Assembly (NCBI GenBank): GCA_001599975.1 | Contig: BCIO01000004.1 | Span: 905,434-969,433 of the forward strand | DNA length: 64,000 nt | Direction of reading: 5' to 3' | Source of the DNA: Cystobasidiopsis lactophilus | Taxonomy: Eukaryota; Basidiomycota; Agaricostilbomycetes; Agaricostilbales; Chionosphaeraceae | Shown: one piece after another, positions 5,405 to 63,263 of the stretch | Layout of the letters: each line of letters begins with the position of its first letter | How positions within the stretch are numbered: the stretch's first letter is position 1 | Program-made: the position numbers and the translations under genes | The notes under the pieces: generated by a model | What the model saw: only the letters and a program-made list of their open reading frames with translations | Database searches by the model: none | What the model was told of the DNA's origin: nothing

Positions 5405-6892
5405 TCACCACACATCTCCGTCGCCGCCATCGCTATCGCCTCCAGTCGCCCATGGGTCCTCCATCGTATCGGTTTGGTCGAAGGTCTCGTTTCGCGTCCA
5501 AGGGTCACTCAGATCTCTCTCTTGCGGGAAAGGCTCATCTTCCTCTGACCAGCGTCGATCTGCAGTGTGGGACCGAGGAAGCTCTGTGTCGCTTGAGTCC
5601 CCAGATGGTGTCGCAGGTGTAGCTTGTGGCTCTTCAGTATCGGCTTCACTTGAAGGGGTTGTCGGCCACATCATAGGGAAAGGCATCATATGGCCTCCTA
5701 TGCCGCTGCTATGTCGGGAAAAATAATCTATATCGGTGGTCATGGCCGTAGCCAACAAGATCGCGCGCTGATCCAGAGTAAGGCCGACATGAAAAGGCGC
5801 GATCTCCTTCGTGTGGACACTGCCGGCTTTGGCGCTGGGACCGGTGGAATTAGTTGCTTCGGGCCTGACGTTCTCCAAAGCGGCGGGGTCAGACTTGGGA
5901 CCGCTAGGATCGGTGGCAGTAGTTGCTTCGGGCCCGCGGAGGTCCAAGGCAGAGGCGTCAAACTTGAGAGCGTATTGTGATGTGTCCGTGAAAATCTCGC
6001 GACCGAAAGATGTCCAGTTCTTGTTAACGCTCGCCATCAACCTTGAATGCGACAGCGCACTGTTAGCGACACCCCCTCAAATCACAAAATTCCGAAACGC
6101 TCACAATCCCTCTGTGTCGTACACATGGAAATCCCAAGACAGTGGAGGTGTGTCAATTCTGCCAAACTGCTCATAGCCTTCGTTTCGTCGCTGAAAAAGA
6201 TTGTAGCGCCGCCTGAAAGGGTGCCACTCCTGCTGCACTTCTCCGACGATGTTTTCGGGATCGTTGCCCAGGGAGATGAAAGTGCGGGAATTGATGAAGG
6301 AAAAGGGTCGATTGATACGAAACAGGACCTCTCCGGTAGGGGCCAGGACTGTGGTTTTGAAGGGGCGGTGCGTGCGAAGCAGTTGTCGGCTGAGGGTGCT
6401 AGCCAGGCCCGATTCCTCCTCGGCAAGATAGCCAACGATGCTTCCGTCTTCATCAGAGATTTGATACCGATTGGCTTGCTCGAAACCGATAAAGACGTTC
6501 ATCATTTCGAGCTGCCTGGACACGATCAGCGCCTTCTGCCCCAGCAACGCTGCTTGAGGTCCAGATGCTGGGACCACTCCCGCTGGATCCTCGGGTATAT
6601 TTACGCTGATACTGGTGATGGGCGTAGGAGGAGGTGGAGTGGTGCGCTCTGCTAGTGGAGTCGAGTTGCCTGTGAGCGGCTGCTGATCGTAGGCATTCCA
6701 AGAAAAGCGAGAGCTCTCCGCTTGAGTCCTCAGCACTTCTGATGGCCGCTGAGGAGAGTGAGATGTGCTTTGAGTTGGGTTTGACACCTGGGCCGGGTGG
6801 CGAGGTGGCAGAGGCTTTGCAGCTCTCGAACCCCGAGGGCCGACAGCGCGAGCTTGGGTTCGGACGCCTCTCCAGTGCCTCGCTACGTTCAT
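5405..6892 (-). CDS. mitochondrial phospholipid scramblase-family protein (Aim25-like)
   Basis: Two exons joined by an intron at about 6043-6106. The core contains NVFIGFEQANRYQI, RPFKTTVLAP-TGEVLFRINRP, QQEWHPFRRRYNLFQ and DFHVYDTEGL, and across the splice ASVNKNWTSFGREIFTDTSQ. This is the scramblase 12-stranded barrel with its GREIFTDTGQY-type motif near the C-terminal helix (RAILLATAMTTDIDYFSRHS). The preferred start, ATG 6892, gives MNVARHWRGVRTQARAV, a good mitochondrial presequence; an in-frame ATG at 6991 would add 33 residues. An acidic Asp/Glu/Ser/Thr-rich tail of about 90 residues follows the barrel, longer than in yeast Aim25. Family members act in lipid and membrane homeostasis; in fungi the protein is mitochondrial. 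Confidence 0.82.
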
Positions 6893-7179
6893 AAGAAATT
6901 GAGATGACCTTGGTGTGGCGTCGTTTTGGGTGGTAGACAGGCAAGGAAGGTGTAGGGCCCTCATGCAGGGCGGCACCCGCTCGCTTCCCAAAATCTCATT
7001 GCCTTCAAGTTTTTGCTCTCTTGAAGTCCGTTTACTTTGCTCTAGCTACACCATGCCGAGGATGCGCTTTGGCTTGCTGGTGGTGCTCCGGCCTGAGACA
7101 TTTGGCGCAAAGAGTGAAATTCATGAGGTTTCCCCTTCCATATTGACTAATCATGGCACCTGAGATACCATGTCGCTCT

Positions 7180-26957: not shown

Positions 26958-29465
26958 TCAAGATATCGGGTCGGCAACACTCTGCAGCTCGTCCTCTTCG
27001 GCCAGCGTGCCCAAGATGCTGCCCTCTGGCATGCCATAGAACCTGCCAGGCTCTGCACTGGCGAACAAAGGCTGCACGCCGTTGACCAACTTGCGCCGCT
27101 TGTCCATCGCCATGAGCAAATTGTCTGGCAGCGGCGGTGGGCGCTTGGTTTGGGAGGCGCCCAAAGCCAGCTGGGACGGTTGCTGAGACGACGAGGGATC
27201 CTTGTCCTTCTCTTTGTCCTTGTCTTTGGACGTGCCCTTCTTCTTGAGGTTGCGCAGGCGCTTGAGGTAGCCGCTCTCGACCGTCTTCTCCAGCCCGTCC
27301 CGCAAGTTCTCGTACTCCTGCCTGGCCATCCGGTCCTTGACCCGGTCGACCAGTTTGCCCTTGATGGCCTCATTGCTGCTGATCTGCTCGGACAGCAGCC
27401 GCTGGCAAGCCTTGAGCTCGGCTGAGATCTCGTCGTCCGTCCGGGTCGACCAGTCGATCTCGCCGTCTCGAGCTCGATTGCCCGGCAAGCCTTGAGGATT
27501 GCTGGGGAATACGCCGATGAAGCGCAGCTCGCGGCGAATGCGGTCTTCGAGCTCGACGGCGTCCATCGGCGCAGGGGCCGTCGTCGGGAATGCCTGAGCT
27601 GGGTTGGACGATGGTCCGGCCACCGGCACCACAGGAGAGGAAGGTGGCACCATAGCGTCCATGGAGATGTCGCCTAGCGCCAAAGGCTGGGCTATCGACG
27701 AGCTCGTGGATTCGTCGAGCGCCACCACCGGCGGGGGCAACGGTAGCGACGGTTCCGCCTGCATCTCTTGCCCTCCTTCAAGCTCCTTCTCCAGTGGCGA
27801 CGGCTCTGTGGAGTCGGACAAGGCGGCGATGAGCCTCTCGGCTAATGGGCCGAGGTAAATGTTTTCGGTGGGCAGCTTGTCGTCGGACACGTCTTCAGCT
27901 CGGAAGCGTTCCAGCTGCGGTGGATCCAGAACGGAGCCATAAGAGTCGTCAACATCCGCCCAGGCTTCGGTATAGTGCCGACCCAAGGCGGGAATTAAGA
28001 AAGGCGTCAAATCGTCCGACTGAGCGACGGAGACCACGACCTCAGTGTTCGTTCGGGAGCACTGAAAGGCAGATTGGTCATCGCACCTTTTGGGACAAAT
28101 AAGCCACGTCGTCCTCTCCAAAGTTGCGCAGGTACGGGTCGAGGAAGTTTTGGAAGGTGTTGAAGGGCGTCTGGGCGCCGACTTTGATCTTGGAGAAGTC
28201 CTCCTCGACGTCCTTTTGGTGTTTGGGCAGCGACTTGGGCGGCTCGGAGATGCGCTTGGGCGGGACTTGGGTGCGATAAGTCAGTCTGTAGGTGAACTTT
28301 CCGATGAGCAACAATTCTTGCTAGGTGGGAGTCAACGCACGAGAAGTCATCCGCTACACCAGGTTGCGGTGGAGCTCTGGGAGCAACGACAGAGATAGTA
28401 GGCGGCGGCGGTGGTGTTTGACTGAGGGCCTTCTTCGGGCCGAGCGTGCTGAGTTTGAGCTTGAGGGAGGGGGCCGCCACCGGGGTGGTTTGGACCGGTG
28501 CGGCGGGCGCGGGCGGTGTGGGCGCGGGCGATGGAGCGGGTGAAGCAGTTTTTTGTTTGACATGGTTCGGTGGGGCAGCTAAGGACGGAGGTTGGGGAGG
28601 TTGAATGGGTTGAGGGGTGATGGCTCTCGCCACCGCTGCTGGTGTGGCTGCTGGAACGGGCAGTGGCGGCGCTGCGGCCGTGGTGGAAGATGAAGATGCT
28701 GTGGAAGATGCAGGTACAGAAGGCACAGAGGGAGGCTGAGGCACAGTCTTGCGAGACTTGGTTTCTGAGGGCGTCGATGCGGGCCGCTCTGTTAGTGATA
28801 CTGTGCGACGAACCACGCCTTGAGTCCCAGTCCACAGTGAGGTGATGTAAGAGAGCCAACGCACAAGGTTCACCCTCAGAGAAATCGTCGTCCGAGTCCT
28901 CGATGGCGCCGCGTTTGCGCTTCCGCTTTTTTGGGTCACTGCTGCATGGATCCGTCAGTTTGCCACCCGCCTAGAAGCCGGGCCAGAAGCTGGACACACC
29001 TCTTCTTGCTCTTGATGATAGACTCTGCTTCTGAGAGCTCCGGCGTCGATGAGACTGTGCGTCGACGCTTGATGAGAAATGTTTACTTCGCGAGCAGAAC
29101 CACATAAACACACCACTCGAGTCTCTCCGGACCCTCTGCAAAGGCTTATTGTCTGGCGTAGGCGCGCTGTTGTGTCCATTGGTGGTGGCCAGGGGCTGTT
29201 GCTGCTGGACGACCGGGCTGGGGGTGGTCGCTTTGGGCGGCGGCTTGGGCTTTGTGGGCTTCCAAGTCTTGAGCCGCTCCTCGTCCGCCCTGAGCCTGGT
29301 CTTGCGCTCGCCGAGCTGGCCTTGAAGCTGGCGCAGTTCACCCTCGAGGGCGCCGAGCTCGGCGGCGGGCGGGATGGCGTTGGAGGTGGACGCATGGGTG
29401 TGGAGGAGGGCAGAGTGGGAGATGGAGTAGGGCGCGAAGGCCTTGTCCTTGTCCATCGCTTGCAT
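26958..29465 (-). CDS. NGG1: SAGA/ADA histone acetyltransferase subunit Ada3/Ngg1
   Basis: Scaffold subunit joining Gcn5 and Ada2 in the SAGA and ADA acetyltransferase complexes. The C-terminal third is diagnostic: TDDEISAELKACQRLLSEQI, DRVKDRMARQEYENLRDGLE and KTVESGYLKRLRNLKKK, the conserved Ada3 helical domain. The N-terminus (MDKDKAFAPYSISHSALLH, then a coiled coil GALEGELRQLQGQLGERKTR) is followed by a lysine-rich nuclear stretch (SKKRKRKRGAIEDSDDD region, about 28900) and a long Pro/Ala/Ser-rich linker. FGEDDVAYLSQKVR, a second family block, lies at about 28100. At least four introns. Starts at ATG 29465 or 29456. It ends 52 nt from the stop of the convergent RsfS gene. Confidence 0.82.
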
Positions 29466-33967: not shown

Positions 33968-34369
33968 GGCTCCTACTGTTCTCGATGTGCTTGTTGCTTG
34001 TTCCTTCCGGGCGTGTCCTTTGTTGAGATTTTGGAAGTGCCCCTCGGGACACCTCATTACGAGGGTTCTTTGTGTTCTCGCCCCGTGCCAATACCTTATT
34101 CATTTTATTTCTTGCACTGGATGGTGGGATGCTTTACTCACCAATTGCGTTCGATGGCGACTCCCGGGCTGCAGGCAGTGTTCTCGATCATTCGCCACAA
34201 CTTGGAACGCTTGCACCCCTTCTTTGGACACGCCCAAGTAACCCTCAGACCGCTATGCCACAGACTAGACGACCGAACCTGTGACGTTGGACGGCATCTG
34301 AGTTATTCGTATTCCAAAGCACACCGGAATGGGTTTCGATTCTTTGGGCTCTCCTCCCACTCTACAACT
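33968..34369. promoter_or_regulatory. intergenic, 5' of the first GT32 gene
   Basis: About 400 nt, pyrimidine-rich on the plus strand. Open frames here do not resemble protein. Presumed promoter and 5' UTR. Confidence 0.25.
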
Positions 34370-35417
34370 ATGCACGCCTGCCGCAAGCTAGTCTGCCTCT
34401 CGTTCGCTCTTTTAGTGTTGATCTTGACTCTATGTCTATCGACCTTGTTCGCGGCTCGGCATCTGCTCTCCACTGCGCAAAGCTTGATCTCCCTCCAAGA
34501 CCTCGACCAGTGGACCTCCAACCTGACCGTCCCTCATGGACCGCGCAATGGCTCATCTCTATACGAAGAGAAAGTCCCGAGGCTCGTACATCAGACTTGG
34601 AAAGACTCGACTATTCCAGAACGGTGGCGACCCTTGCGGGAGGACTGCATGGCAATGAACCCCAACTTGTACGCGGGTCCCAGTCAGGCCTTTTACTCTC
34701 TCTGAACGGTTTTCTCTCCAGTCGCTACCAGCTATGGACCGATGTCGAAGCTCGCGACCTTATTGCCGCCTCCTACCCCTGGTTCCTTTCAACGTACGAC
34801 AACTATCCCTATCCTATCCAGCGAGCCGATGCCATCCGCTACTTCATCTTGCATAAGCTGGGCGGCGTCTACCAAGACCTTGACGTCGGCTGCAAGAAGC
34901 CCTTGCTGCCCCTCCTCTCCTTCGACATCGTCCTTCCGCAAACCTCGCCAATCGGCGTTTCCAACGACGTTCTCTTCGCTAGTCCAGGCCATCCCTTTAT
35001 GGAGCACGTCATCCGAAGCCTGCCCAAATACAGCTACAACCTGCTGTCGCCGTTCGCTACAGTCATGGCCTCCACCGGCCCCACCTTCCTTACGGTGCAG
35101 TACAGCCTCTGGAGAACCGACGACGTCCGAGTCCTACCCGAAGAGCTGTATGGAAATGCAAAGGATTCATTTTTTCGACACGTCCCGGGCTCCACTTGGC
35201 ACGCCGGCGACGCTCGCTGGTATCTCTTTGTGGGTCTCTCGAGAGCGCAAAGGTAGCCCTTAGGCTCATGATGCCACCACCTTTGATGCATCTAAACACG
35301 CACGGCATTCGTTTCATTGCGGGCGCGGCGCTGATAGTGGCTTTTGGGGCCGTCTCCGTCCTGCGCCACTGCTGCTCCAGAACACGCAGCGCGTTGTATC
35401 TCCCAGCGTCGGCCTGA
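34370..35417 (+). CDS. GT32 mannosyltransferase-like protein 1 (OCH1/MIPC-synthase family)
   Basis: A membrane glycosyltransferase of family 32, related to Och1 and to the Sur1/Csh1 enzymes that mannosylate inositol-phosphoceramide. ATG 34370 starts a type II anchor (KLVCLSFALLVLILTLCLST). VPRLVHQTWKDSTIPERW is the family's N-terminal block. After an intron (about 34668-34721) come YQLWTDVEARDLIA, PIQRADAIRYFILHKLGGVY and the DxD metal site in QDLDVGCKKPL. PEELYGN and GSTWHAGDARW follow. A 44-nt intron (about 35219-35262) then restores a frame with a second helix (RFIAGAALIVAFGAVSVLR) and a short basic tail; without splicing the protein would stop at 35256. A two-helix layout is typical of Sur1/Csh1. 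Golgi location is inferred. Confidence 0.8.
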
Positions 35418-48080: not shown

Positions 48081-49623
48081 TTACACTGCCTGTGAGGACA
48101 GATCCGGTAGACCGAGAGACTGCCGCTCCGGCTCATCCTGTTTCGGCTGGCTCTTGATCCACACTGAGTCGTAGTCGACGGCGGTCAGAGTCACGCTATC
48201 GATGCGAACTTCGTGCTGCTGAGCCTGCCTCGTCAAACGGCTGCTGGTGTCGAAGTAAGAGCTCGTTCCTTTTGAGGCCTGGGTGGGATGAAGCGCAATC
48301 GCCGTGGCACGGTGGCTTGAAGACTTGGCATGCGTCCAGACGAGAAAGGTAAACACATAGGAATGGCCGATAAGCGGGTCCTGATGGAAAGGCAAATCAA
48401 CGAGAGAACACACTGAAGCTCTGTGCCAAAAAAGGCCGGCCTCACAATCAAGCTGTCACCAGCGTTTCCTGTAAACTGAATTGAGCAGGGGCCTTAATCT
48501 GTGTGGACCCTACTCACCCAAAAAGTAGCACATCATGCCCAACAAGCTCAGCACAGTGGTCAGGAAGTTTGTTGTTACTGTCAGCACGCAGAGTCGTGTG
48601 AGAAGAGCGCCGGTTCTGCGAAGAAGACAACGTTCAGACTTCGTTCAGATAGAATAAAAGCCACTTACTGAGCTGGAAGCAGCTTTCGTCGCCCTTTGAA
48701 GAGATTGCAAAGCATGAGGGAGGTGATCAAGATGTCGTTGACTGCCCCCTCAAAAAGGTGTTGAGTGTCCAGAGGTGGATTGAGTACGAGAGCAGAACCA
48801 ACCGGAAGGTGCGATATAGAAGACACCTTTTGTGGATGAGCTGCGGTGGTGCAGCCAAAAGCGAAAGAAGCCCACCTTGCTTGACTAGAGTCCCTATGGT
48901 CTGTTTCGCCGACGACCCATAAAGGAACCAGAGCTCGACGGCCGACCATGTGCCCAAACATAGGGTGGCCAGTGTTGAAATGCCACAAGCTCCGGCCACC
49001 AAACGCGACTCGTGATAGAGGTGCCAACAGCTTTGAAAGGAACTCCTTATCAGCCGCGTTCCTTGACAAAGAAAAATGCAAGCACACCGCCATCCGTAGA
49101 AAGCCAGGACGGTGGAGCTCGTGAGGACGTTGAAGACCTCAGCGACCACATACGCCAGGCCGACATTCTGCACAAATTTAGTGGCTGGGGCTGAAGAGTT
49201 GCGCACAGGTAGCACTGGTACTGACATCCACCCAGTTGAGATTTCCGTAGTACACAGCGAAAGAGTAGCATCCGTCAACAAGAAATGCAACCATCTGACC
49301 GCCAGTAAGACCGAACAACATCCAGGCCGTCCATCGAAACGGGGCTTTGTCGTTCTTGGCGCTATCCGAATTGGCATAGATCCACCTGAACCGTGAGTTC
49401 GATCAGAGTTGCCTGCCGGGACTTGAAGGCAACAGCTCACAGCCAGGCCAAAAACAAGGGAGCAAGCATCAACGAGAGTGCGTTGCCTGTGGAAGGACTG
49501 TTATCGAACGCTGTGAAAACAATGAACACTTTGCGTACCCATGTAATACAGGACCAAGTAGGAAACCCATGATGGATCTAACAAAGGGTATTCCGGATCG
49601 TTTGTTGGGTCGTAATGCACCAT
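48081..49623 (-). CDS. TM1: seven-helix membrane protein, array copy 1
   Basis: ATG 49623 starts MVHYDPTNDPEYPLLDPSW, then helix 1 (YLVLYYMG, continuing across an intron). WTAWMLFGLTGGQMVAFLVD, VVAEVFNVLTSSTVLAFYG, VAGACGISTLATLCLGTWSA and NDILITSLMLCNLFKGRRK follow, then LCVLTVTTNFLTTVLSLLG and DPLIGHSYVFTFLVWTHAKS. The tail, about 80 residues, holds HEVRIDSVTLTAVDYDSVW (coded around 48160-48222), the most diverged form of the tail motif, and ends LPDLSSQAV. About eight short introns. The FYG...ND(x)L(I/V)...TGxxT layout resembles the basidiomycete DUF6534 family of seven-helix proteins, whose function is unknown. Closest to TM2, with which it shares the DPxxDPxxxxLD opening. Confidence 0.68.
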
Positions 49624-50021
49624 AGCCCTTGCAGAGAGCCCTAGGTGGCTTTGCGCTTGTTCCGATGGCGCGTTGGCGTCAACTCGTCGTTGAAATAGTT
49701 CAGGCCGCGCTTGGTCGACTGCTCCTACTCCATGTACTCGGGCAAGCTGCCGAATCAACAAAAGAAGGCCGGGGCAGAGAAAGGCATCTCGATCAGGTAA
49801 TTTTGCGCAACAAGTCGACAAAGTTTGTTATTCGGGTAGGCGCGACTAGTCTGCAATCAACATTTTTGACTGTAGCCGAAGGATGTGACTGTCCTATCAT
49901 AGTCGCCGTCGAGTTGACAATGAAGACGCGCCGGCCGCCGCTCTGAGGAGCGCGGAGGGATGTCGCCTTCGGCTCGTCCGAAAATTTGCCACTGGCAAGG
50001 AAGACTATGCATCATGAAGCG

Positions 50022-51434
50022 CTACACGTTTGAGCCCGGGGGCTCGGGGAAGTGGTAGAACGAGGTAATTTCTTGGCCCTGCCGACTTGGAGACCTCGAA
50101 GGCGGTCGACTCGCCGCTTTCGGCAGCGTCCCAATGTAATCCTCGTCCGTATCGACGGTTGAACAGTGATCCACCGAGATCTGGACTTCCAGATGATGCG
50201 ATCGGAGGCGGTGGTGGCTGCCCAGGCCGAGCTTGGAAGCCAAGCTCTTCGTTTCTTGACGAGGTTCGCTGAGGGTGACCGTGGTCGGCCCTTGCATCCT
50301 GCCTGATGACTTGGCATGGGTCCAGACGAGAAACGCCAAGCAGTAAGAGTGGCCGAGAAGTGGGTCCTGTGCTGGCTTTCAGCATCTTTCGGTGACGTTT
50401 GGCTCCGCTGCCATCAGTCGGGAAGGTGGAGAACTCACGATGACGCTGTCGCCGCCGTTCCCTGTAAAGTAACACGCCATGCCGATGAAATTCAAGCACG
50501 TGGTAGCTCCGTTGCTAACAATGACGAGGTAGCAAAGGTGCTTGATGAAGGCGCCGGTTCTGCCCAGCACCGTTAGCGCGCATGAGGTGCACAAAGGGCA
50601 ACGCATTTACTGGGAAGGTATGGTCTGCCGTGCGCCTTTGGTCAGGGCATATAGCATGAGTCCAGCAACGAGCAGGTCGTTGACTGTCCATGATTTTAGA
50701 GCGGTCAAATTCGAGGCGAAGGCACGAACCAGCGGGAGCCAAGTAAAAAACCCCAAGCTGGAGCAAGGTGCTTATTGTTTGGTCATCCGATGAGCCAGTC
50801 AAGATCCAGAGGTCAATGCTGGACCACATTCCGCCGGCGAAGCTGCGAACAAATTGAGCTCGAGGCGAGATTGCGCGAGAGAACGTACGTTGCAAGAGTG
50901 CAGATACCACAAGCTACTGCGATGACAATCGACTTGTTGAAAAGCTGCCAGCACCGCCATCTGTTTGAGAAAGGAGACTGGTAAGATAGCTCCAATTGAT
51001 GTGGCGAGGGCTTACCCGTAGAACGTCAAGACGACCGTCGATGTCACTGCGTTGCTGATTTCGGCAACCATGTACATCAACGACGCATTGTTGATGTAAT
51101 TTATAGAACCGAAGAAAAGACAGAAGGAATAGATTGAATCGACCATGAAAGCGACCATCTGGACAAAAGTGGCGCCGAACAGAGCCCAAGCCGTCCCTAC
51201 TCGACATGTCAATAGCGCTCCATAGCATCGAAGCCTGAAGAGGTATACCGTACATCGAAAGGCAGCTCTGTCATTCTTTGCACTTTGACTGGTTGCATAG
51301 AATGCAAGCCAAATCAAAAGGATCGGGGCGAGCATCAGAGAGAGCATATTGCCCATCATGTACTGGACCAAGTACAGTTTCCATGCCTTGTCCAAAGGAT
51401 GAAAGTCGGGGTCATCGTTGGGGTCATAGGCCAT
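50022..51434 (-). CDS. TM2: seven-helix membrane protein, array copy 2
   Basis: ATG 51434 starts MAYDPNDDPDFHPLDKAWK, then helix 1 (YLVQYMMGNMLSLMLAPILL) and FYATSQSAKNDRAAFRC. Later exons read WALFGATFVQMVAFMVDSIY, YMVAEISNAVTSTVVLTFYG, SIVIAVACGICTLATY, NDLLVAGLMLYALTK, LCYLVIVSNGATTCLNFIG and DPLLGHSYCLAFLVWTHAKS. The tail motif is HHLEVQISVDHCSTVDTDED (coded around 50138-50200). The protein ends FPEPPGSNV at 50022. The exon layout follows TM1. The helix order and the ND-L-(V/I) and TGA-x-x-K elements resemble DUF6534 proteins; no ligand or enzymatic motif is visible. A plasma-membrane sensor or scaffold would be speculation. Confidence 0.7.
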
Positions 51435-51855
51435 CTGGCCTTCTGCAGCCCGCCACGGGAGGCGGGCAAGCAACTGGAGACGGCTTCTCTTGCGCTGCCA
51501 GGGCAGCGATGAGCTCCACTCTCGGAAGCAATGGTAAAAGGTCGTTGAGCTCTAAAGAGCTTCAAGAATCTAGAGCAGCAAAGGACCCGGCACCAGGAAC
51601 ATCGAGCAAAGTTTAAAACACCCCGAGTCCGAGTGGAAGCTGGTTGCTCCATCGAGCGGTAGAGAGGAGCACTATTTGCAGCGACTGCAGTAGTGCATGC
51701 ATGCTGCAACTTAAAAGGCGAAGGGATCCCTCTTGGTGAGTTGCGGTCAACTGCCACTGGCATCTGATGCGCCCGGGTGGGAGAGAGCGCGCCACTTGTT
51801 TTGACTATTATACATACATACATCCTTGTGTACAATTTCCCTTCAAACACAAGTA
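51435..51855. other. spacer between TM2 and TM3
   Basis: About 420 nt, including an AT-rich patch with attatacatacatacatcc near 51808. No gene seen; probably the TM2 promoter and TM3 3' UTR. Confidence 0.25.
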
Positions 51856-53174
51856 CTACACTAAAAGCTCTCCGCCGAACGGTACTCCGACCTCTGGCTT
51901 GCGGTCTGCTTCGGCTCTTGATGTCCGATCCCCTGCGTCTGTATCTACCGAGGACGAGCGGTCGATGGACACTTGAACTTGAAGGTGGGAAGAGGGAGCT
52001 CGCTTGAGGTTGATGGCCTGAACCTTCTCCGCCTGGTCGACGCTCGCTGCTGGACCCCTTGTCTTGGCGTGCATCCATCTGCGACCGGGGGCGTGAGCAG
52101 ACCGGATGAAGGCCATTGGGAGCACATTACTTACACTAGGAAAGTGACAGTATAGGCGTGCCCAAGCAGGGGATCCTAGACGTTGTCCAAAGAAATCAGA
52201 AGCTACCAAGGAACCGCCAAAAAAACGCATACGATGATGGAGTTGCCACTGCTGTTCGTGACATAGCACAACAATCCGGCCAAGTTCACGATGGACGTAA
52301 AGGCATTTGTCGTGATGGACAAGATCAACAGCCGCTTGACCACGTAGCCACCCTTGTTCGCCATCGTCTTCTTCTGTTTTTTCCTCAAGTTCCAACACAT
52401 AAGCACCGTTATTAGCATGTCATTGACTAAGCCATTTTGTCAGCTCGGATCAGCAGACTCTTCAAGCAGAGAACTTGCCCGTCGGCGCCAAATAAAAAAT
52501 GGATTCAGCCCATTGTCTGCTGGCTGGAAGCTCGTAGATCCCGCTTTCCCATACAACATAGCCATCGTAGCATGACCAAATACTGCCGCCGAATGTTGTA
52601 ATTGTGCAGATAGCACATAGGGCAGCGACCACATAAGACTGGCCGAAAAGGTGAAAACAGCGCCAGCTTTAATAGAATGTTGAGCAACAACCAGAACAAT
52701 TATGAGTGAGTGCCTACCCGTAAAAGCTGAGCACGACGCTTGCCATGACCACGTTGAAGACTTGCATGGTGGTGTAAGCTGGAGCCGCGAGACATGTCTG
52801 TGAGCGCGGAAGGCAAGTGTAAGACAGGCTACTCACGAGGAGTGGACGAATATATATAATCCAAATTCCCAAAGTTGTAGCAGAACGAAAGGACAGTGTC
52901 GACGTAGAGCGAAATGAACTGGCCGACGTTCAACGCCAGGAGACTCCAAGCAACCCCTGTCGCGCTGTGGTCAGATCCCCTTCACGATCTGGACTTTGAG
53001 CAGCTTACAGAGGACTTGAGGCCGATCAGACTTCGCTGCTGGACTGGTCGCATACCGAAAAAGCCAAACAATCAAGGGCCCTCCAATCCCGAAGCTTAGG
53101 GAGTTGCCAACGAAGTAGACGACGAGGTAGATCAAATCGGACTGGGACCACGGAGCCCAGATCGTGGAGTCCAT
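51856..53174 (-). CDS. TM3: seven-helix membrane protein, array copy 3
   Basis: ATG 53174 starts MDSTIWAPWSQSDLIYLVVY, continuing FVGNSLSFGIGGPLIVWLFR and YATSPAAKSDRPQVLC. Then LALNVGQFISLYVDTVLSFC, TTMQVFNVVMASVVLSFYG, ALCAICTITTFGGSIWSCYD, NDMLITVLMCWNLRKKQKK, LLILSITTNAFTSIVNLAGL and DPLLGHAYTVTFLV. The tail reads KRAPSSHLQVQVSIDRSSSV, then DTDAGD, a nearly ideal tail motif (coded around 51931-51990), and ends PFGGELLV at 51856. Closest to TM4: the FGIGGP(L/I)IVWLFR block is the same in both. Seven or eight introns, all short. Confidence 0.7.
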
Positions 53175-53890
53175 GGCTGGCGCTTTTGAGCGAGAAAGAA
53201 AGGGCCGGCGTCAAGGATGCAAGCTTGCAGCGGTGCGTCGGCTTAAAGCCTCATGAACGGCAGTACTTCGGTTGAAACAGTCAACAGCAGCTATTCGACA
53301 CTCCTGTAAAACCAGTATGAAGGAAAAGTAGTAGGGCAGGGTCAAATCGACGGGAATCGACCGAAAGAAGACAACAGCCGGGAAAGTTTAAGGTTTCGAC
53401 GTGGGCGCGGACTGGGCGCGGCGGCGATCTTGGCCAGGGCATGTACGGCGCAGCCTTCATCTCAAACGAACGAGGTCACGAACAGGCACGAAGGGAAGCA
53501 ACATCACGCTGCTCGCCATCAACGTCGAATTCAGAGCCTGGGGCCTGGCCCCAGCGCGATGCCAGGTTATGGTACACGCAGGTCACAGCTCAGGTTAACG
53601 AACAGCAGCATGTAATATATTGTACACCGAAAGGGATGGTGGCCCGGTTGTTTGACGCAGCTGTCAGAAGCCGCCAAGGGGCTCACTTTGAACTTTGCAT
53701 CCTTGGGTCCACCCGTCATTTGAGGCCTACAGGCCATTTTCTTAGCTAGATTTTGAATAAACTCACGAGAGAAATAGGGTCGTACAAGTCACACCTTTGA
53801 CATGAATGCAAAGTGTGCGTGGCGGTGGCGGCGCCGTCGCTACCGCGCCCCATGTTGCTTGCGACGTGCGCAGCACACATGGCCTACCCC
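53175..53890. other. spacer between TM3 and TM4
   Basis: About 0.7 kb. No coding sequence, repeat or leftover array copy recognised. Confidence 0.25.
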
Positions 53891-55267
53891 TCAACTGGGA
53901 TGTACAGTGTCGAATGGGCCTTCTGGGGGGAGATCGGTGCCGCCTTTGGACTCTCGCCAACTTCTGGAGGCTGCTTGTTCTTCGCTAGTGTCGATGGATG
54001 AGAATCGGTCCACGGACACCTTCACTTGGAGGTGGGCGGAAGCCATCCTTTTCGGCTTGAAAGGAGCGGCTTTTTCGACGTCCATGCTGGACGCTCTGCG
54101 GCCGCTCGACTTGGCGTGCATCCATCTGTGACCGGGGTGTGAGTTAAAGAATTCTTTGGGAGTCGAGGCTTACACCAGGAACGTTAGGGAGTACACATGG
54201 CCGAGCAGAGGGTCCTACCGGGGCCAAACTCAGCCGTTGGCAGCCAGGAACAAACAAGAACTGCACACCACGATAGAGTTTCCACTGCTCCCGGTCAAAA
54301 AGCTGACCAAACCGGCGATATCTATAGCGGAAAATTGAGCATCGATACGAACAACACGCATGGAGGACTTTACTTACTCACAGCTGAGGTCAGGGCGTTG
54401 GTGGTCACAACCAGTATTAAAATCCTTTTAATGACGGATCCCCCTCTGTTTAGGTTATTTAGAAGCGCGCTCACGTACAGATCGAGAGAATGCCTTACTT
54501 GTGCCCCAAAGTTTTCCGCTTCTTGCGCTTCAGGTCCCAGACCATCAAGCAGGTGATCAAAAGGTCGTTAGCTGCCCAAAGCACATGAGGGCTTGACAGG
54601 CTTCCAACGGCATGCACGGCGCACCAGTCGGGAACAGATAGAAGATTGACTGCGACCATAGCTGCTTAGGCGAAAGGGCGTAGATTTCCACCTTCCATAA
54701 GATGTAGATCTGGCATTCGGACCACAGCCCACCCCCTAGCGTCCCCAAAGTGCAAATGGCGCATGTAAGAGCCACCCATATTGATCGGTTGTAAAGGACG
54801 AAGCAACGATAGCTATTGAAGCCATCGTCAGAACTTCGATGAGGGTAGGGTAGCGGCCAAATTACCCGTAGAACGTCAAAACTAGTGTGGCAATGAGAAC
54901 GTTCAAGAGTTCCATCGTGATATACGTTGGTGTTGCTGAGTATGCGTAGGCGATGTTGCCGAAGTTGAGACAGAAGGAGAGCACACTGTCGGCATACAGA
55001 ACAAGGAACTGCGTTGCGTTTAATCCGAGGAGAATCCATGCGATCCCTATGTGTCCCTCAGCGATATCCTAAAAACAGAGAGAAAGGCATACAGCGAACG
55101 TGAGCCTTGTCACTTTTGGCTGCTGAGCTGGTGCTGAAGCGAAACAGCCAAACGATAATCGGTCCGCCGATGCCAAAGCTGAGCGAGTTCCCCAGGAGGT
55201 ACCATACGAGCCACTCCAGATTAGCAGTGGACCATGGGACCCAAGGTGCTGGCACTGCTGCATCCAT
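53891..55267 (-). CDS. TM4: seven-helix membrane protein, array copy 4
   Basis: ATG 55267 starts MDAAVPAPWVPWSTANLEWL; helix 1 is LGNSLSFGIGGPIIVWLFRF, followed by STSSAAKSDKAHVRC. Then ILLGLNATQFLVLYADSVLS, TMELLNVLIATLVLTFYG, VALTCAICTLGTLGGGLWSE, NDLLITCLMVWDLKRKKRK, ILILVVTTNALTSA and DPLLGHVYSLTFLV. The tail reads MASAHLQVKVSVDRFSSIDT, then SEEQ (coded around 53977-54036), and the protein ends PFDTVHPS at 53891. The two Arg/Lys-rich stretches after helices 5 and 7 mark cytosolic faces, which puts the tail motif in the cytosol. Sister copy of TM3. Confidence 0.7.
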
Positions 55268-56251
55268 GTGTCGACTCCGAAGACGGGGATGCCGATTCGG
55301 CGAAGCGTTGTGTCCGCCTGGTCGTCTTTAGCTAGTCGAAGAGGGCGACTTAGGGACTCTTTTATCCTAGAACACCCTTGAAGAAACAGGCAAAGAGGGT
55401 TCCAGTAGTAATCCCAGCGCCAGCCAGCGCCTCGCAGATCGCGACCGAGATTCACCAAAAGCAGAAGGACAACAAACCCCACCTGATTGGCACGAGCAAA
55501 GTTAAATCTTGTCGGGCACTACTCGTCGCTTCCACCAAGGCACGAGAGCAAAGCAAAGAGCGAACGGAAGGCACTACATTGTTATAAGCTGGTGGTGGTC
55601 ACTGACGAAGAGTCGATGTTGCCGCCATCATTGTTGAGCTTTGTCAAGGTGCCATGCTAACAACTGTGGTATTCCATACAAGATGTACCCGTACATAGTA
55701 CAATGCAGTACATAATTTCCAAGTCTAGTAACTGTGTTCATATGACTTGGCGCCACGCAAACCGGGTGGGTTCGTTTCCAGTCGATCTTTTGCCTGCCCT
55801 TGCGACGCCTTGTATTGTGTGGCACCGAGGAACTGATTCCAATCTACAGGCGCCTGGCGACGTAGAGATGGAAGGGCGCGTGCGCGCTGGCTTCAGGGTT
55901 TATATTGCGCGTGGTGGAAAATCGTTGTCTGGTCTCTGTGCCATCTGCAAAGCTACAGATAAGCCATCCTAGTCTTGTATTAACCTGATGGGGCGGCACG
56001 AGAACGTACCAAAGCAAAGGACGGTGAGCGTTTTCGTCCCCAATCTTTTTCCAGCGACCAGATTGCCGAGTGGCACTGACGATACATCCCAAGATGTGCC
56101 AAATTTGATGGTTTATTGACCTCTTTGGCTCACTTCGGTGGGGCTAAAGGCGCTTGACGATGCCGGAATCGGATTTTAGCCTGGTCGCGCAGTGTTCCTT
56201 CGAGATCGGTACTCACCGGGGCGCAAGGAATGAAAAGGAGGACCTGATCTT
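55268..56251. other. spacer between TM4 and TM5
   Basis: The longest spacer in the array, about 1 kb, rather AT-rich in 55640-55760. Only short chance frames; no remnant of a lost copy recognised. Confidence 0.25.
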
Positions 56252-57771
56252 TCATCTAGGAACCACAGCCTGGAACGGCGCTGCTAGAGAGAGAGTAGCG
56301 GCCGGTTTGGATTCGCGCCAGAATTTGGAGATGGTCTGGCCCTCGCTGGTGTCGATGACGGAGTGGTGATCTATCGATACTTGAACATGATGGTGAGCGG
56401 ACATTGTACGCTGTAGTCTCAGTACGCCATGCTTTGAAAGGCGCTGGCCAATCGTTGGAAGCGCCGGGCCTCTTGACTTTGCGTGCATCCACCTAGGAGT
56501 TTGCCAACAGGGTAAGACAGATATGGGCAGGAAGATGTCATTGACATACACTATGAAAGTGAAGCTGTAGGCGTGGCCCTAAGAGAGTTGTCTTTGAGTG
56601 AGTGGGTGCCGGAAAGGTGACGCAAGACGCTCACCAAAAGCGGGTCCTATATCATACACAGGTTATTAGAGAGCCAGTGTAAGAGATGGAGTACAAATCG
56701 ACGAACCATAATGAGAACACCGTTGCTATGCGTCAGGAAGGATATCCAGCCAGCCACATCTAGAGAACCCGCGCATTAGCTCGCTGTCCAAGTTGTTGGA
56801 GGCAAAGTGCACTTGCTGACCGCAGTTGTAAACGCATTCGTTTGAACAACAAGGACAAAAATTCTCTTCAAGACCGAGCCCTCGCTTTGCTCCGCGAAGT
56901 CAAAGACCGCTGCAAGCGGCAAAAACAGACAGGCAGGCTCACTCGTCCACTACCCTCTGGCGGTTCTTCGTGTGCAAATTCCACAACATCAAGCAGGTAA
57001 TCAGAACGTCGTTGACTGAGATCTCGTCAGGGCAAAATCAGAGCACAGACATCGGCTTATGCTCACCAAGGGGTGCCAGATAGAACAGCGATTGGGTCCA
57101 CAGCACATTAGGGCCGAGGGTGTATATACCGTCCACCCAGAGCGTGTAGCTTGAGTAACACGCCCAAATGCCACCGCCGAAGGTGGCGCAAGTACAGAGA
57201 GTGCAGGCGGCGGCAATCCAGAGCGAGCGCTGAAACATGGAAAAACAGCGATAGCTGGGCTCCCGCGTGAGTAAGGTATGGAAGGACTTCTTGGAGGCCC
57301 ACCCGTAAAACGCAAGCACCACGGTGGCCATCACGACATTGAGGATCAAGATCACGGTGTATTGAATGCTTGCTTTCTGAGCATCGCCAAATCAGCGATC
57401 CCCAAGGTCAAAATAAGTAAGAAGCCTTGCATTCGAGTACGCAAGGTTCCCAAAGTTAACGACGAACGACAAAGAAATGTCGGCGTAGAGCGTTAACGTT
57501 TGGCCCAGATTGAGGCAGAAAAGGGTCCATGCGATGACTGAGAACGCGCGTTTAAGGACACACTGCTCGTATGCCAGGCAATGAGCAGAAGGAAGGACGC
57601 CTCACCTCTGAGATGGGGCTTGTCTGCTCTGGCCGCGCGCGAGGTCGCATAGCGGTAAAGAGACATGCCAAGAAGGGCTCCGACCACCAAGCTCAGAAGG
57701 TCACCGGTCATGTATAGCATCATAAACGTCAAGGTGGGTTTATCAAACGGAACCCAAGTGGTTGAGTCCAT
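56252..57771 (-). CDS. TM5: seven-helix membrane protein, array copy 5
   Basis: ATG 57771 starts MDSTTWVPFDKPTLTFMMLY, then MTGDLLSLVVGALLGMSLYR and YATSRAARADKPHLRG. Further pieces: LNLGQTLTLYADISLSFVV, ILILNVVMATVVLAFYG, AAACTLCTCATFGGGIWACY, NDVLITCLMLWNLHTKN. DPLL and GHAYSFTFI are split by an intron exactly within the DPLLGHxY signature. The tail holds MSAHHHVQVSIDHHSVIDTS, then EGQ (coded around 56338-56397), and ends PFQAVVPR at 56252. The RTPxWMHAKSRGPA segment before the tail is shared with TM3 and TM4 (RWMHAKxxG). Small exons near 56640-57000 make the middle of the model less certain. Confidence 0.65.
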
Positions 57772-58185
57772 TTCGGCCACACGAGGGGTCGGATGGCAGC
57801 AGCCTCGCCGGGCAGCAACAGCAACAGCGGACGTTGTCGTCGTTCGGGGTCTGGTGATCTGACCTGGAGGTAACACCCTTTGGCCGAAAGAAGACAACAA
57901 AGTTCCAGGAAAGTTTAGACTTTGTGCTTGCCCAACGCACGAAGGCTAGCCGCGCTTTGAGCGACCATCGGGTCGAGCTTGCCCATGCACAACTACGCCG
58001 TCACGAGAGCAGTAGTCGAGTAGCGAGTAAGGCAGACCCAAAGGAAAGGACCGAAGTGTGGCGATTTTTGTCAAAGTTAATGGCACCGGAGGTGGCGCCG
58101 AGAGGGTGAGAGCGGCGACGGCAACAGTGGTATGCGATGGTATTACAACATGCAAATTCTCGTGTGTTACTGATGGGCAGAATGA
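57772..58185. other. spacer between TM5 and TM6
   Basis: About 410 nt; no gene or repeat seen. Presumably the TM5 promoter. Confidence 0.25.
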
Positions 58186-59938
58186 CTATACGGAGAAGAG
58201 GTCGTCGGGGCGTTCTTTGGGTCGTTGGGGCACAGTCGGGCTGAAATCGTCTTCAAGGTCTGAAAAGGACCCTCGATCAAAGGCGATTTGAACGTCCTAT
58301 CGGTTCATTTCAGCTCTGCTGTTGCCTTTGTGAGAACAGGAGGGATAAGATGCTCACCAGATGGGGGTTCGATCTTGGTCTGGCCCGTGATCTCTGGCCC
58401 AACTTGGACTTGTGCTCTGTAAATTGATGAATCGGTTCTGGCTCGGGTGTCATTATTGGCGTGAGCGCGGGCGTGTGGGCGATGGACGGTGGCGCCGGCA
58501 TCAGGGTCATGTTGCGTGTCGTTGGCAGGTGCTTCGTTTTGGTGCTCACTGTGAAGCCACACATGAGGCGTCAGCACGTTCGTAGCGGTTTAATTAGTGC
58601 TGTTGAGCTCACCGAAGCAGAGGAAAGAGAGGCTGTACGCGTGCCCGAGTAATGGGTCCTGTTCGGCGCGTGAGCACTGTTTATTCGACCCAGAACTGAG
58701 GCTTACCAAGACCGAGTCGAAGTCGTTATGTAGGAAGTCTGCAATATAAGAGGCTTTCAGAACCTACTCTCGGGTAGGGGAGCTTTTAGAAGGAAAGCAG
58801 ACGCACAGCAGACCAGAGCGGCAATCGTGAGGCAGGTCGTCAAAACGTTACAGGTGATGAACAGGCCAAAGACGCGCTTGACAAAGGCTCCAGCACTGTG
58901 TTTTTCGGCGTCAAGGCATTCCGCAGAGCGACGAATGAGGGAAAGCAAAGAGCGCACGTTTTGGGCATCGGCCTTCGCTCTCGATACGTGTGGAGGACCA
59001 TTAGAATTACCACCACCACGTCGTTGACTGATCGCCGAGTGTGAATCAGCATCAGGTGAAGCGCGCAGAATAAATCGAACGAGGACTTGCAGGCAGGGGC
59101 AATCTGTGCGCACCACCAAGATGTCAGCTCTGTGCATTGAACCCCCAAAAATCGCGAATGTAACTTGCGTAGAAAAGTCCTTGCTTGGCCAGCGTGGCTC
59201 TGGATTTGCTCGACGTCGCTTGAAACCAAAAGAAGAACTCCATCCCTGACCCTGAGTGCAGCCATTCGACAATCAAACGCTTTTCCCACTCAGACGCAAG
59301 AGAACCGCGTACAATAGAGACCACCACCAAGAGTGCAGAAGGTGCAAAAGGCGCAGAGGAGGCCGACCAGCTTGGATTTGGAGAACATGTGGAACAGCCG
59401 CCACCTGTACACCGTCTTTGAGTGACCTAGCTCGCAACGAAGAAAGTCTAGCGCCAAACGCACCCATAGAAAGCCAGGACGACGGTGGCGATGAAGGCGT
59501 TGCAGCACTCGGCCATGAGGTAGACCAGTGAAACGTTCTGTGCACCAGCTGTCCATTGAGATCACAATCGGATCATAAAGGGAACGTAAGGCGCACATTG
59601 AGGTAGTTGTAACTCTCGTGGTTCTGCGGTCGGTTCAAGATGCCGTCGGCGTAGAAGAGCGCCACTTGTAAGATGGTCAAGCCGAACAACGCCCAAGCCG
59701 TCCCTGTGTCCAAGGCTCATTCTTCAGATCTCAGTGGTCTATGACTGAAGGAGAACGTACATCGATAGAAGACCTTGTCCCACCGGACCCGGAGGGAAGG
59801 CGAAGTGGCATAGGCCCAGAGCCAGAGCAAGAGCGGGGAGGCGACCAGGAAGCTGAGCGCCGTGCCGGTGTAGAAGGCGAGGTATTGGACCCAAACTGAA
59901 TTCGAGCCCGAGTTCCAAAAGGTGGGCTCGTCAGCCAT
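58186..59938 (-). CDS. TM6: seven-helix membrane protein, array copy 6
   Basis: ATG 59938 starts MADEPTFWNSGSNSVWVQYL, then AFYTGTALSFLVASPLLLWL and AYATSPSLRVRWDKVFYRC. Later: WALFGLTILQVALFYADGIL, LMAECCNAFIATVVLAFYG and LVGLLCAFCTFCTLGGGLY. DPLLGHAYSLSFLCF leads by splicing to VSTKTKHLPTTRNMTLMPA and a Pro/Thr-rich stretch ending RPRSNPHL. A phase-0 intron (58297 to about 58358) then joins a short last exon, DVQIAFDRGSFSDLEDDFSP...RPDDLFSV (58186-58296). The splice rebuilds the array's tail motif as HL-DVQIAFDRGSFSDLEDD. Without that exon the frame would stop soon after the intron start, so the conserved motif supports this model. The most diverged copy in the membrane part. Confidence 0.68.
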
Positions 59939-60819
59939 TCCTCTCCTCTCCAAAAATTTGCCCGGCCTTCAAACGAGAAGATCAGGCAAAGTCGAACAAG
60001 TCAACTCTTAAGGACCAGCAGAGTCGATCTGCAACGGAATGCTAGGGATGAAAAAGAGACGAGAAGGCAAGGAGGGGTCCCGAGGTTTGAACCAGCAAAC
60101 TCAGGTGGACGACCCAAAAAGGGAGCGGGCGATTCAGAGGAGGCTGATTCGATTCCTGTTGGGACAGAGAGAGCTGTCGTCTCCCGATGAATTCACAGAC
60201 ACAAGCAAGCAAGCAGGTTGGTTGGAGGCAGACACAAGGCGAGTCTGTAGGCAACCAAGTTGCGGATGCCAGAGTTTGCGCCGGACCTGGCAATCCTCGA
60301 ATTAAGCTTCCAAACGCCCAGAGGGTGGGATTGGCGTTAAGGCAGCGACGCGTTCAGCCACCTGTAGACCAATCTTCTAAACATGATATTGGTCTAGATG
60401 ACGCGCACTTCGAGCGTGGAGCAAGAGCAGTGAGCGCAATGGGGCGAAGTGGTGGCCTTGGAGGAAGGGTTAGAAAAGGTCTCCCGTTTCGCTTCAAATT
60501 TGGCATGCGACTTCCTCTTGACCTCTTTGGTGCTCTTGCATGGTCGCAAGCTGCACGAAGCGACCAGCTCATGCGCATGAAATGTCGCCACCAAGCCGGG
60601 TTGATTACGTTATCAACTTGGCCTTTCAACTTCCACCCGTCAGGCCTTTTGAGGGAACGGCCAAAGCTTCGCCTGTTTGTTTGTGTGCACCCAGCGACGA
60701 CCCACCCACACTCCTTTGGACCAGCCACACTCGTTTATAAATCGTGGCCGCTCGCAAGCCTTCACGGTGCGTGGGCGCTCGCCAGAGGATCGAGCGAATT
60801 TATAAACAACGAGTTGCAG
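59939..60819. promoter_or_regulatory. divergent intergenic region between TM6 and the Ace2/Swi5-like gene
   Basis: About 0.88 kb. TATAAA occurs at 60736-60741, 79-84 nt upstream of ATG 60820, and again at 60801-60806, only 14-19 nt upstream of it. The first is well placed for a promoter. The plus-strand frame of the zinc-finger gene happens to stay open back to 60187, but those residues look random and would include the TATA boxes, so they are read as non-coding. Confidence 0.45.
60736..60741 (+). promoter_or_regulatory. TATA box of the Ace2/Swi5-like gene
   Basis: TATAAA within gtttataaatcg, about 80 nt before ATG 60820. Its position supports that ATG as the true start rather than the open frame further upstream. 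Confidence 0.45.
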
Positions 60820-63263
60820 ATGGCCTTTGCTGCGTCCGAGTTTGAGTCTTTGGACACCCAGTTCAGCCTGTCAAGCAGCGCTACGTTCGACTACTTGGAT
60901 CCCATCATGTTGGGCGATGGAGGACAAGGGGGAGGAGGAGGAGTGCAGGCGATGAAGAAGCAGCTCGACGGCGTTGGGCACCACGGCGGCTTCCTGACCT
61001 CGCCCATGTCCAGCCTCAACAGAGTCTATGGCGACTCGGTCATCACCATCCCCATCTCGCAGCCACCCCCAGCCAAGGCGGCGGCGGCGCCGGACACGAT
61101 TTTGATTTCGACCGGCGACGTCTTGGACGAAATCAACAGGTTCGCCTTGGCCACGGTCAACAACCACTCGGCGCCCTCCAACAACCAGCAGCAGCCACAG
61201 CAGGCGCCACAGGGGCAGAAGGGCTTGGGGATGGACATGATGGGCGCCGGCGACTACAACAACCCGAACCTGAGGATCTACGGCCTGCCCATCGGCAACA
61301 ACGAGAATCAGCCGCTGGGTGCTGGCGGCAACACCAAGGGCGGCAACAACGGCTGCGGTTTCCTGCCTTACCCAGACCACTTGCCTACGGTCACTTTGGG
61401 CCGAGGCCGGAAGAACGTCAGGGATGTTGGGCCGCTGGATGCACCCGCGCTCGCTCAACAGCAACAGCAACAGCAGGGCCAGCAGTCTCATGCGCCACCA
61501 CCGCCCAATATCCCGATCCAGTCACCCATCCTCTCGCCTCCCCAGCCGCCGCGGGTCCGGCGCAATAGGAAGCAGCTGTCTGTCCGCACCAACGACGGCG
61601 CCCCCTCCACGCCCAAGCACCAGCGATCCGTCACTTCCCCTGCCCTCCTGAACACTCCAGTGTCAGCGCACATCGGCTCGTTCGACATCTATGGCGACCC
61701 CAAGGTGCCGTTCAACACGCCGGTCGCCCACTCGCACACGCCGAGCACCTTCTCCATGCCTTTCTCCTTCGACGACTTCCTCAACCTTGGGTTGGTCGAT
61801 GCGGATGGGCAGGGGCAAACGCAGGACTTGCTAAGGTCGCCTTCGGCCCACCACGACCCGATGCAGCTCTTGGTCGACCCGCCGTCGTTCACTGCCGATA
61901 GCAACTTTCTCGGAGGCAGCGGCGAGAAAAACGGCTTGGACTTCTCGCTCCTCTCCAGCCTACCGACTCCGGGGTTGGTGGACTCGTCCTGCCTCTCCAG
62001 CCCGGCGTCGGTGTGGTCCAACTCTCCCCTGCTGTCACCAGGCGGCATGATGCCTGCATACGCGCCTTCCTACTACCTCGACCCCAACCTGCCTCTACCT
62101 CAAAGCCCGCCCGTGCAACATCCGATGTCGCCACAAAGGCCGCATGCCGCCTTGCCTCGGAATCGCTCCACCTCCGCCCAGCCTCACTCGCCCTTCCAAG
62201 CCGCGCCACTCTCGCCGTTTCCTCAGTCGCCATTGATGTCACCTCAGCACTCCAATAACGGCAACCAGTTCGCTTTCCTAGACCACGACCCGTACGGCTC
62301 TGCGCCCGGCTCAGCTTCCACCATTCGCGCCGCCCCATCAAGGCCGAATCGGACGTTGGCGCGCAAGCGGTCGCGGATTGACTTTGAGGAGGACAACTCG
62401 GAGGAGGAAGAGCAAGAGGACGACGACGGGCAGAGCGAGTACGGGGACGACGGCGAGGACTCGGACTACAACCCCTCTGGCGCGGCCGCTCAACATTACA
62501 ACCAGTTCGGCAACGATGACATTATCGACATCTCGGCCTACTCCAACGCTCAAGCGCCGGGAAAGCGGCAGCGGGTGGTCTCTGCCCCCATGGTCCAAAA
62601 CCGCCGCCTCAAACCCGGGCCAAAGCCACGCCGCCAGGCCTCGTCCAACTCGCTCAACTCCCACTCCTCCTCCAACAACTCGGCCGCCGCGCCAGTGTCC
62701 AACCCGCAAGACTTCATCGCGCAAGCCATGCGCCAAATGTCGGCCGACGCCGAGTCGGAAGGCGACGACCTCACCGAACCGGGCGCCGTGCCCAAGGCTG
62801 TCATCCGCTCGCTCTACTCGTCCGTCGCCGCCGGCTCAGGTGGCGCCAAGAAGTACCTCTGCCTCATTGAGGGGTGCGGTCGCACTTTCCCGAGGAAGAG
62901 CGCCATCGAGAGCCACATCCAAACCCACCTCGAGGACAAGCCGTTCATTTGCTCCCAACCAGATTGGTGCGTTCTTCATCCTTCCTTGATCAGGTCCAAC
63001 CCGAGACTGATTAATCGGTGGTACTCACGCACAGCCGAGCGGCATTCGTCAGGCAGCACGATTTGAGACGGCACGAGCGGATCCATTCGGGCTCCAAACC
63101 TTTCCCTTGCCCGTGGTACGTCACTGTCTGCCTTTCACCTCCCTTGACTGAGCTTATGACTCGCTTCTTGTACAGTGGCAAGGGGTTCGCAAGAGGCGAC
63201 GCCCTCATGCGCCATCGCCAACGCGGCATCTGCATTGGCTCCGTCGTCCCTCGTCGCTCTTAA
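60820..63263 (+). CDS. C2H2 zinc-finger transcription factor, Ace2/Swi5 type
   Basis: ATG 60820 starts MAFAASEFESLDTQFSLSSS. Some 680 residues of low-complexity Gln/Pro/Ser/Asn-rich sequence follow, with a basic patch (LARKRSRIDFEEDN), an acidic patch (EEEEQEDDDGQ) and KRQRVVSAPMVQNRRLKPGP, likely nuclear signals. Three fingers sit at the C-terminus, across two introns (about 62966-63034 and 63117-63177): CLIEGCGRTFPRKSAIESHI; CSQPDCRAAFVRQHDLRRHE; CPCGKGFARGDALMRHRQRG with ICIGS. The SHIQTHLEDKP linker, AFVRxHDLxRH and the CPCGKxFxRxDAL...R-x-x-C third finger are the Swi5/Ace2 pattern rather than Crz1 or Msn2. In yeast these factors drive G1-specific cell-separation genes. Many SP/TP sites suggest CDK control, as in Swi5, but this is inference. 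Confidence 0.83.

Follow-up and report, generated by a model that had tools for sequence, protein, structure and literature searches.

We found that five proteins encoded by a six-gene tandem array in the fungus Cystobasidiopsis lactophilus share an 18-residue block in their C-terminal tails, and this block is very probably a functional motif kept by selection. The array is located in a 64,000-nucleotide stretch of contig BCIO01000004.1 (G000:C4:905434-969433), referred to here as the window; the only genome examined was that of this fungus (22.1 Mb, 8 contigs). The genes, TM1 to TM6, code for DUF6534-type proteins with seven predicted transmembrane helices (7TM). An earlier note made from the sequence of the window had claimed the motif for all six proteins. 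The claim holds for TM2 to TM6, but not for TM1. Nor is the motif restricted to the array, since it is also present in an intact homologue, P66, and in a gene relic on another contig.

The tail motif and its copies

The block reads approximately HLxVQ[IV]S[IV]D[RH]xSx[VI]DTxE and is encoded on the minus strand as HLEVQISVDHCSTVDTDE in TM2 (50142..50195), HLQVQVSIDRSSSVDTDA in TM3 (51934..51987), HLQVKVSVDRFSSIDTSE in TM4 (53981..54034) and HHHVQVSIDHHSVIDTSE in TM5 (56342..56395). In TM6 (58249..58363, minus strand), it is composed of HL and DVQIAFDRGSFSDLED, with a 61-base intron (58357-58297) that cuts the motif between HL and DVQIAFD; the flanking exons are 58548-58358 and 58296-58186. The motif region is confined to one exon in TM1 to TM5. 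The strings quoted in the earlier note for TM2 to TM6 were recovered in their spliced tails. At the corresponding position of TM1 (48165..48218, minus strand) there is a remnant, QHEVRIDSVTLTAVDYDS, which is within chance and retains V4, I6, a threonine at the position of S12, V14 and D15.

Conservation extends over L2 (H in TM5), V/L4, Q5 (K in TM4), I/V6, S7 (A in TM6, T in the relic), D9, R/H10, S12 and D15, with T16 found in TM2 to TM5 and the relic; position 8 is mostly hydrophobic (E in P66). The S/T-x-x-D pattern recognized in the earlier note, S/T12-x-x-D15, occurs in all seven aligned proteins (the six array proteins and P66) as well as in the relic. D9-x-x-S12 is found in six of the seven, TM1 retaining T12-x-x-D15 alone. 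Thus, the serine has an aspartate at both -3 and +3 in 6/7 proteins. Positions 15 to 20 contain two to four acidic residues per protein. The motif is separated from the last helix by 25 to 58 residues and from the C-terminus by 19 to 39 residues. In all seven proteins, a lysine lies 4 to 12 residues past the motif (shuffle frequency of 0.0137 for a pattern noticed post hoc).

P66 was located with protein searches and a spliced aligner. It lies at C4:173-174.5 kb, at a distance of about 779 kb from the array, and is an intact homologue of 334 amino acids that carries RLELQISEDHRSSMDGEE. Its hydropathy profile has 8 segments, probably one too many, with 20 lysines and arginines on the tail side versus 7 on the opposite side. 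The P66 tail, used as a query, identified one further place, C5:644579-644704 (E = 0.038; reciprocal E = 0.0036). In the surrounding 1.7-kb stretch (L084, G000:C5:643200-644900), RLDLQITLDRSSSTDTER is preceded by a TM7-like segment, HFTFTFLVW. The copy spans about 1197-1514 of L084, downstream of an open frame that looks leucine-rich-repeat-like (a label given by inspection, with no search) and occupies the place where most of the other helices would be expected. Judging from its sequence, we take the C5 copy as a 5'-truncated relic of the array gene family. Besides themselves, four whole-genome tail queries (E up to 10) found solely array genes, P66 and the relic; these counts are lower bounds because only the best candidates were scored.

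The best 17-residue gapless block over the seven full tails, HLEVQISVDHCSTVDTD, scored 269, whereas shuffled tails had a mean of 98.8 and a maximum of 124, and none of 500 shuffles matched it. When TM2 to TM6 and P66 were held out singly and compared with a TM1-free profile, 0 of 2,000 shuffles of each protein's own tail reached its score, as opposed to 265 of 2,000 for TM1. With a profile of TM2 to TM6, P66 and the relic, the held-out scores were 39.6 bits for TM2, 40.8 for TM3, 37.2 for TM4, 31.1 for TM5, 22.8 for TM6, 28.3 for P66 and 29.6 for the relic; TM1 scored 1.1 bits. The best tail block between TM1 and its closest relative, TM2, had a p value of 0.12 or 0.24, depending on which of two widths was used. 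Without TM2 to TM5, the block in the trio of TM1, TM6 and P66 was not significant (180/500 shuffles), but it became so upon the addition of TM2 (0/500).

Specificity was evaluated in 157,094 stop-free six-frame segments from 127,711 bases of the 22.1 Mb, which comprised the window and eleven further stretches. The six copies contained in a single exon (TM2 to TM5, P66 and the relic) ranked at the top, the next best segment scored 10.1 bits, and the maximum over 20 residue shuffles was 18.1 bits. The intron-split copy of TM6 cannot show in such a scan. The seven copies of the motif had held-out scores of 22.8 to 40.8 bits. The earlier note had asked whether the motif always follows a DUF6534-like membrane domain. 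All seven copies within these bases agree with this arrangement, except that the relic is preceded by the TM7-like piece only. Eight pattern matches were found in viral contigs, and none was confirmed as a relative.

The best 18-column tail block was 48.5% identical, compared to 20% for the best non-overlapping block. The claim of the earlier note that the tails have next to nothing in common outside the motif was borne out for the linkers, which are at chance (observed score attained by 114/200 shuffles), but not for the C-terminal ends, which are weakly similar (0/200 shuffles, z = 4.1), with the best block centered on TM4.

Among TM2 to TM6 and P66, the motif had a proportion of nonsynonymous differences (pN) of 0.335, compared with 0.399 for the membrane core and 0.636 for the remaining tail, in accord with the conserved tail element proposed earlier. 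The difference between the rest of the tail and the motif was 0.300, with a 95% interval of 0.189-0.410 in a column bootstrap. The corresponding proportions of synonymous differences (pS) were 0.819, 0.778 and 0.783. Inclusion of TM1 (21 pairs) resulted in a pN of 0.397 for the core, 0.395 for the motif and 0.632 for the rest of the tail, and in saturated pS values of 0.773, 0.784 and 0.779, respectively. Because synonymous sites are saturated while the motif evolves slowly and the rest of the tail fast, the pattern points to purifying selection and not to recent duplication. By this measure, the constraint on the motif is similar to that on the membrane core, within an otherwise drifting tail.

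Array genes and membrane topology

All six array genes are on the minus strand, and each spliced model is closed from start to stop, with products of 330-361 amino acids, so that the tails are in their correct frames. The TM3 model was built by hand and served as the template for a custom spliced aligner, and TM6 was completed by hand; the models rest on DNA sequence. The curated cut-off of the Pfam family DUF6534 (PF20152), 28.2 bits, was passed by TM3 (51856..53174; 7 exons, 330 amino acids, 41 bits), TM4 (53891..55267; 8 exons, 337 amino acids, 35.1 bits) and TM5 (56252..57771; 10 exons, 336 amino acids, 28.7 bits). The DUF6534-like 7TM protein TM1 (48081..49623; 10 exons, 347 amino acids) was just below it at 27 bits. 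No DUF6534 match was found in TM2 (50022..51434; 7 exons, 361 amino acids), and no Pfam match was found in TM6 (58186..59938; 12 exons, 361 amino acids). All six proteins are nevertheless mutually alignable along their length, with 33-51% identity to TM1.

Hydropathy profiles revealed seven segments in each of the six proteins. Lysines and arginines number 15-27 on the side of the tail versus 1-4 on the opposite side, and the positive-inside rule therefore predicts that the C-terminal tails are cytosolic, which agrees with their placement in the earlier note. The Pfam match stops at the last helix (residues 179-261 in TM3). Thus, the tail motif falls outside it.

Several other features of the array and its surroundings were recorded. 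Five of the 48 modeled introns, in TM3, TM5 and TM6, start with GC (GCAAG); such introns usually make up about 1%. Valine is the last residue in 4/6 array proteins (TM1, TM2, TM3 and TM6), and the last valine is followed by three residues in TM4 and by two in TM5. The SNV end of TM2 resembles a PDZ-type end. Next to the array, an open frame of 972 codons (60148-63066, plus strand) matched no Pfam family at E up to 0.001. Elsewhere in the window, Pfam matches were found in three of ten tested open frames: Scramblase at 6104-7045 (minus strand), Ada3 at 26961-28280 (minus strand) and Gly_transf_sug at 34285-35253 (plus strand).

Possible roles of the motif

As the best explanation of these data, we tentatively propose that one DUF6534-type 7TM subfamily carries in its cytosolic tail a short linear motif that acts through docking and a phosphorylation-dependent adaptor. 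A more specific sequence of events can be proposed, with somewhat less confidence. The alternating hydrophobic part (L-x-V-x-V/I-S-V/I) would bind a partner as an extended strand, and the serine or threonine flanked by aspartates at -3 and +3 would be phosphorylated by an acidophilic, casein-kinase-type kinase. An aspartate at +3 of Ser/Thr is a preference of acidophilic kinases. Phosphorylation would augment the acidic patch D-T-x-E, and the charged patch would then be read by a trafficking or desensitizing adaptor. The most plausible adaptor is an alpha-arrestin, which would work together with a ubiquitin ligase that targets the lysine nearby. The sequences might also mean, although the odds seem to be against it, that a previously undescribed strand-plus-phosphoserine motif defines the subfamily and recruits a dedicated regulator shared by the motif-bearing array members. 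If so, receptors with different sensing halves would converge on one signaling or desensitizing protein. A compact tail motif kept by selection would mark which members share a partner, and a motif peptide of 18-20 residues could be used as bait for partners of the DUF6534 candidate receptors.

Potential components of such pathways are encoded in the genome. Arrestin-N domain matches were found in at least two places, and G-alpha matches exceeded the cut-off at 11 places of the 22-Mb genome, with one more weak match and two pairs within a few kb. Most fungi have three or four G-alpha proteins.

Several observations weigh against docking followed by recognition of the phosphorylated patch. The AlphaFold2 input comprised the contiguous TM2 tail exon and the tail exons of TM1, TM3, TM4 and TM5, with TM6 and P66 left out. 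The isolated TM2 tail exon had a mean predicted local distance difference test score (pLDDT) of 55.9 and a predicted template modeling score (pTM) of 0.19. The pLDDT was 64 for residues 51-60, 75 for residues 61-70 and 39-55 elsewhere in the tail, the motif starting at residue 58. Such a profile could reflect a short motif within an otherwise disordered tail, but no more than that. The beta strand suggested in the earlier note fits the alternation of valines and isoleucines, but no strand was predicted in the isolated tail exon. The lysine pattern was recognized only after the fact, and none of the four genome-wide tail queries recovered TM6 or TM1. The TM1 gene is intact despite the loss of the motif; thus, the motif is not essential to every member. 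To our knowledge, yeast acidic signals lack a conserved alternating beta-branched strand. A single genome underlies all of the evidence, and the consensus GPCR (G-protein-coupled receptor) predictions for DUF6534 all fall within Agaricomycotina in the available part of the source (PMC12842992).

The motif could also be a local form of a broader, diverged tail element found in most DUF6534/DUF6533-type 7TM proteins, in which case the array would not stand out. This possibility is compatible with docking, and we give it perhaps three chances in ten. It was evaluated in ten more distant DUF6534-type tails (L065, L067-L071, two in L072, L073 and L074), which were read from splice options. Strand-like and then acidic segments are present in the tandem pair of L072 (GLTEVSVDVDTSAD and GLTEVSVDLETEGG), in L068 (VPIEYVDLDHRSDTE) and in L073 (NHLSVSMDDSDKE), and the shuffle test combined over the ten tails is weakly positive (p = 0.011, 0.015 and 0.024 with three different motif widths). 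Strand-like segments may occur in the tails of mushroom DUF6534 proteins as well. However, only one of the ten tails (L071) had p < 0.05 with the 18-position profile, the best-scoring windows often differed from the strand-acidic segments, and some of the tail models were picked by eye. The motif itself was unrecognizable in the ten tails. Thus, it marks one subfamily in the sequence examined.

The tandem pair of L072 (G000:C1:4495000-4501000) has a different tail block, GLTEVSVDVDTSADNSLE / GLTEVSVDLETEGGALE, around GLTEVSVD, with 51% identity over 67 residues that span the last helix and the tail. Other subfamilies may therefore possess tail elements of their own, and the L072 block may be an analogous motif in the tails of a different subfamily.

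The main rival to docking of an external partner is an intramolecular latch, which we consider unlikely, at about one chance in four. Here, the acidic, strand-like motif would fold onto the basic third cytosolic loop or onto G-alpha and hold the receptor in an inactive state until it is displaced. In the six array proteins, 3-9 lysines and arginines lie in the loop that precedes the sixth helix, the motif is acidic, and the variable linkers of 25-58 residues would permit folding back. A purely electrostatic contact, however, would need no hydrophobic strand core.

Familiar signals did not account for the block. The core of a SUMO-interacting motif is ppxp or pxpp, where p is V, I or L, and it was matched within the motif in 0/7 proteins, the lone match being in the TM5 linker. 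The PY, [DE]xxxL[LI], NPxY/NPxD, YxxPhi, FFAT-like and 14-3-3 consensus strings also failed to explain it; the seven tails contained only two matches to these strings, YDSV within the remnant of TM1 and RPRSNP immediately ahead of the motif in TM6.

Recent common ancestry of the tandem duplicates, or gene conversion homogenizing their tails, would be in keeping with a tandem, clearly paralogous array. We rejected it as very improbable because synonymous differences are saturated in all three regions (motif, core and remaining tail), the linkers are at chance, and the motif persists in copies on another contig and at a distance of ~779 kb. Chance or an out-of-frame reading, which the shuffles would allow for TM1 alone, is even less probable given the scores of TM2 to TM6 and P66 and gene models that run from start to stop.

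Comparison with known systems

It has been proposed that DUF6534 proteins form a new class of GPCRs, and the largest 7TM cluster not already assigned as GPCRs in 1,357 fungal species was 96% DUF6534, according to the part of the report available (PMC12842992). In the same part, coupling of the family to G proteins is a published prediction only. The array proteins resemble this class in the Pfam matches of TM3 to TM5, the seven predicted helices and the tail predicted to be inside; they differ in having a tail motif outside the Pfam match, in the sub-cut-off score of TM1 and in the unmatched TM2 and TM6. A second comparison is offered by SNB1, a DUF6533 seven-helix protein required for fruiting-body patterning (PMC10949477, as available in part). 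It is likewise a basidiomycete 7TM protein with an intracellular C-terminus and a mechanism that is not known, but it contains a different DUF, and a tail motif is not mentioned in that portion of the paper.

The main text of PMC12842992 does not use the words motif, tail, C-terminal or arrestin. More broadly, the accessible portions of the literature on DUF6534, PF20152 and DUF6533 did not describe a tail motif, and those on DUF6534 proteins named no partner. Short linear motifs in receptor tails are familiar as a kind, and the form described here matched no described motif found in these partial sources.

The spacing of the arrestin phosphocode as applied here, S/T-x-x-D-x-x-[D/E/S/T], fits six of the seven proteins and is broken by TM3. 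We know of no visual or beta-arrestins in fungi. In GPCRs, tail phosphorylation codes are read by arrestins, according to the available part of PMC6424980.

The nearest published analogue found, and the best one, is the acidic sorting signal read by yeast Art2, a likeness drawn by analogy. In the portion of PMC7449699 available, a basic patch of Art2 reads C-terminal acidic sorting signals, nearby phosphorylation sites promote endocytosis, and Art2 directs Rsp5 to ubiquitinate lysines near the acidic signal. The pattern expected of an alpha-arrestin signal, S/TxxD with a lysine within 12 residues, was present in 7/7 proteins for both parts, with no threshold set beforehand. The Art2 signal and the array tails have in common a cytosolic C-terminal acidic patch, a phosphorylatable serine or threonine and close lysines. 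Unlike the Art2 signal, the acidic patch of the array proteins is preceded by an alternating hydrophobic, strand-like stretch and has a conserved D-x-x-S-x-x-D core.

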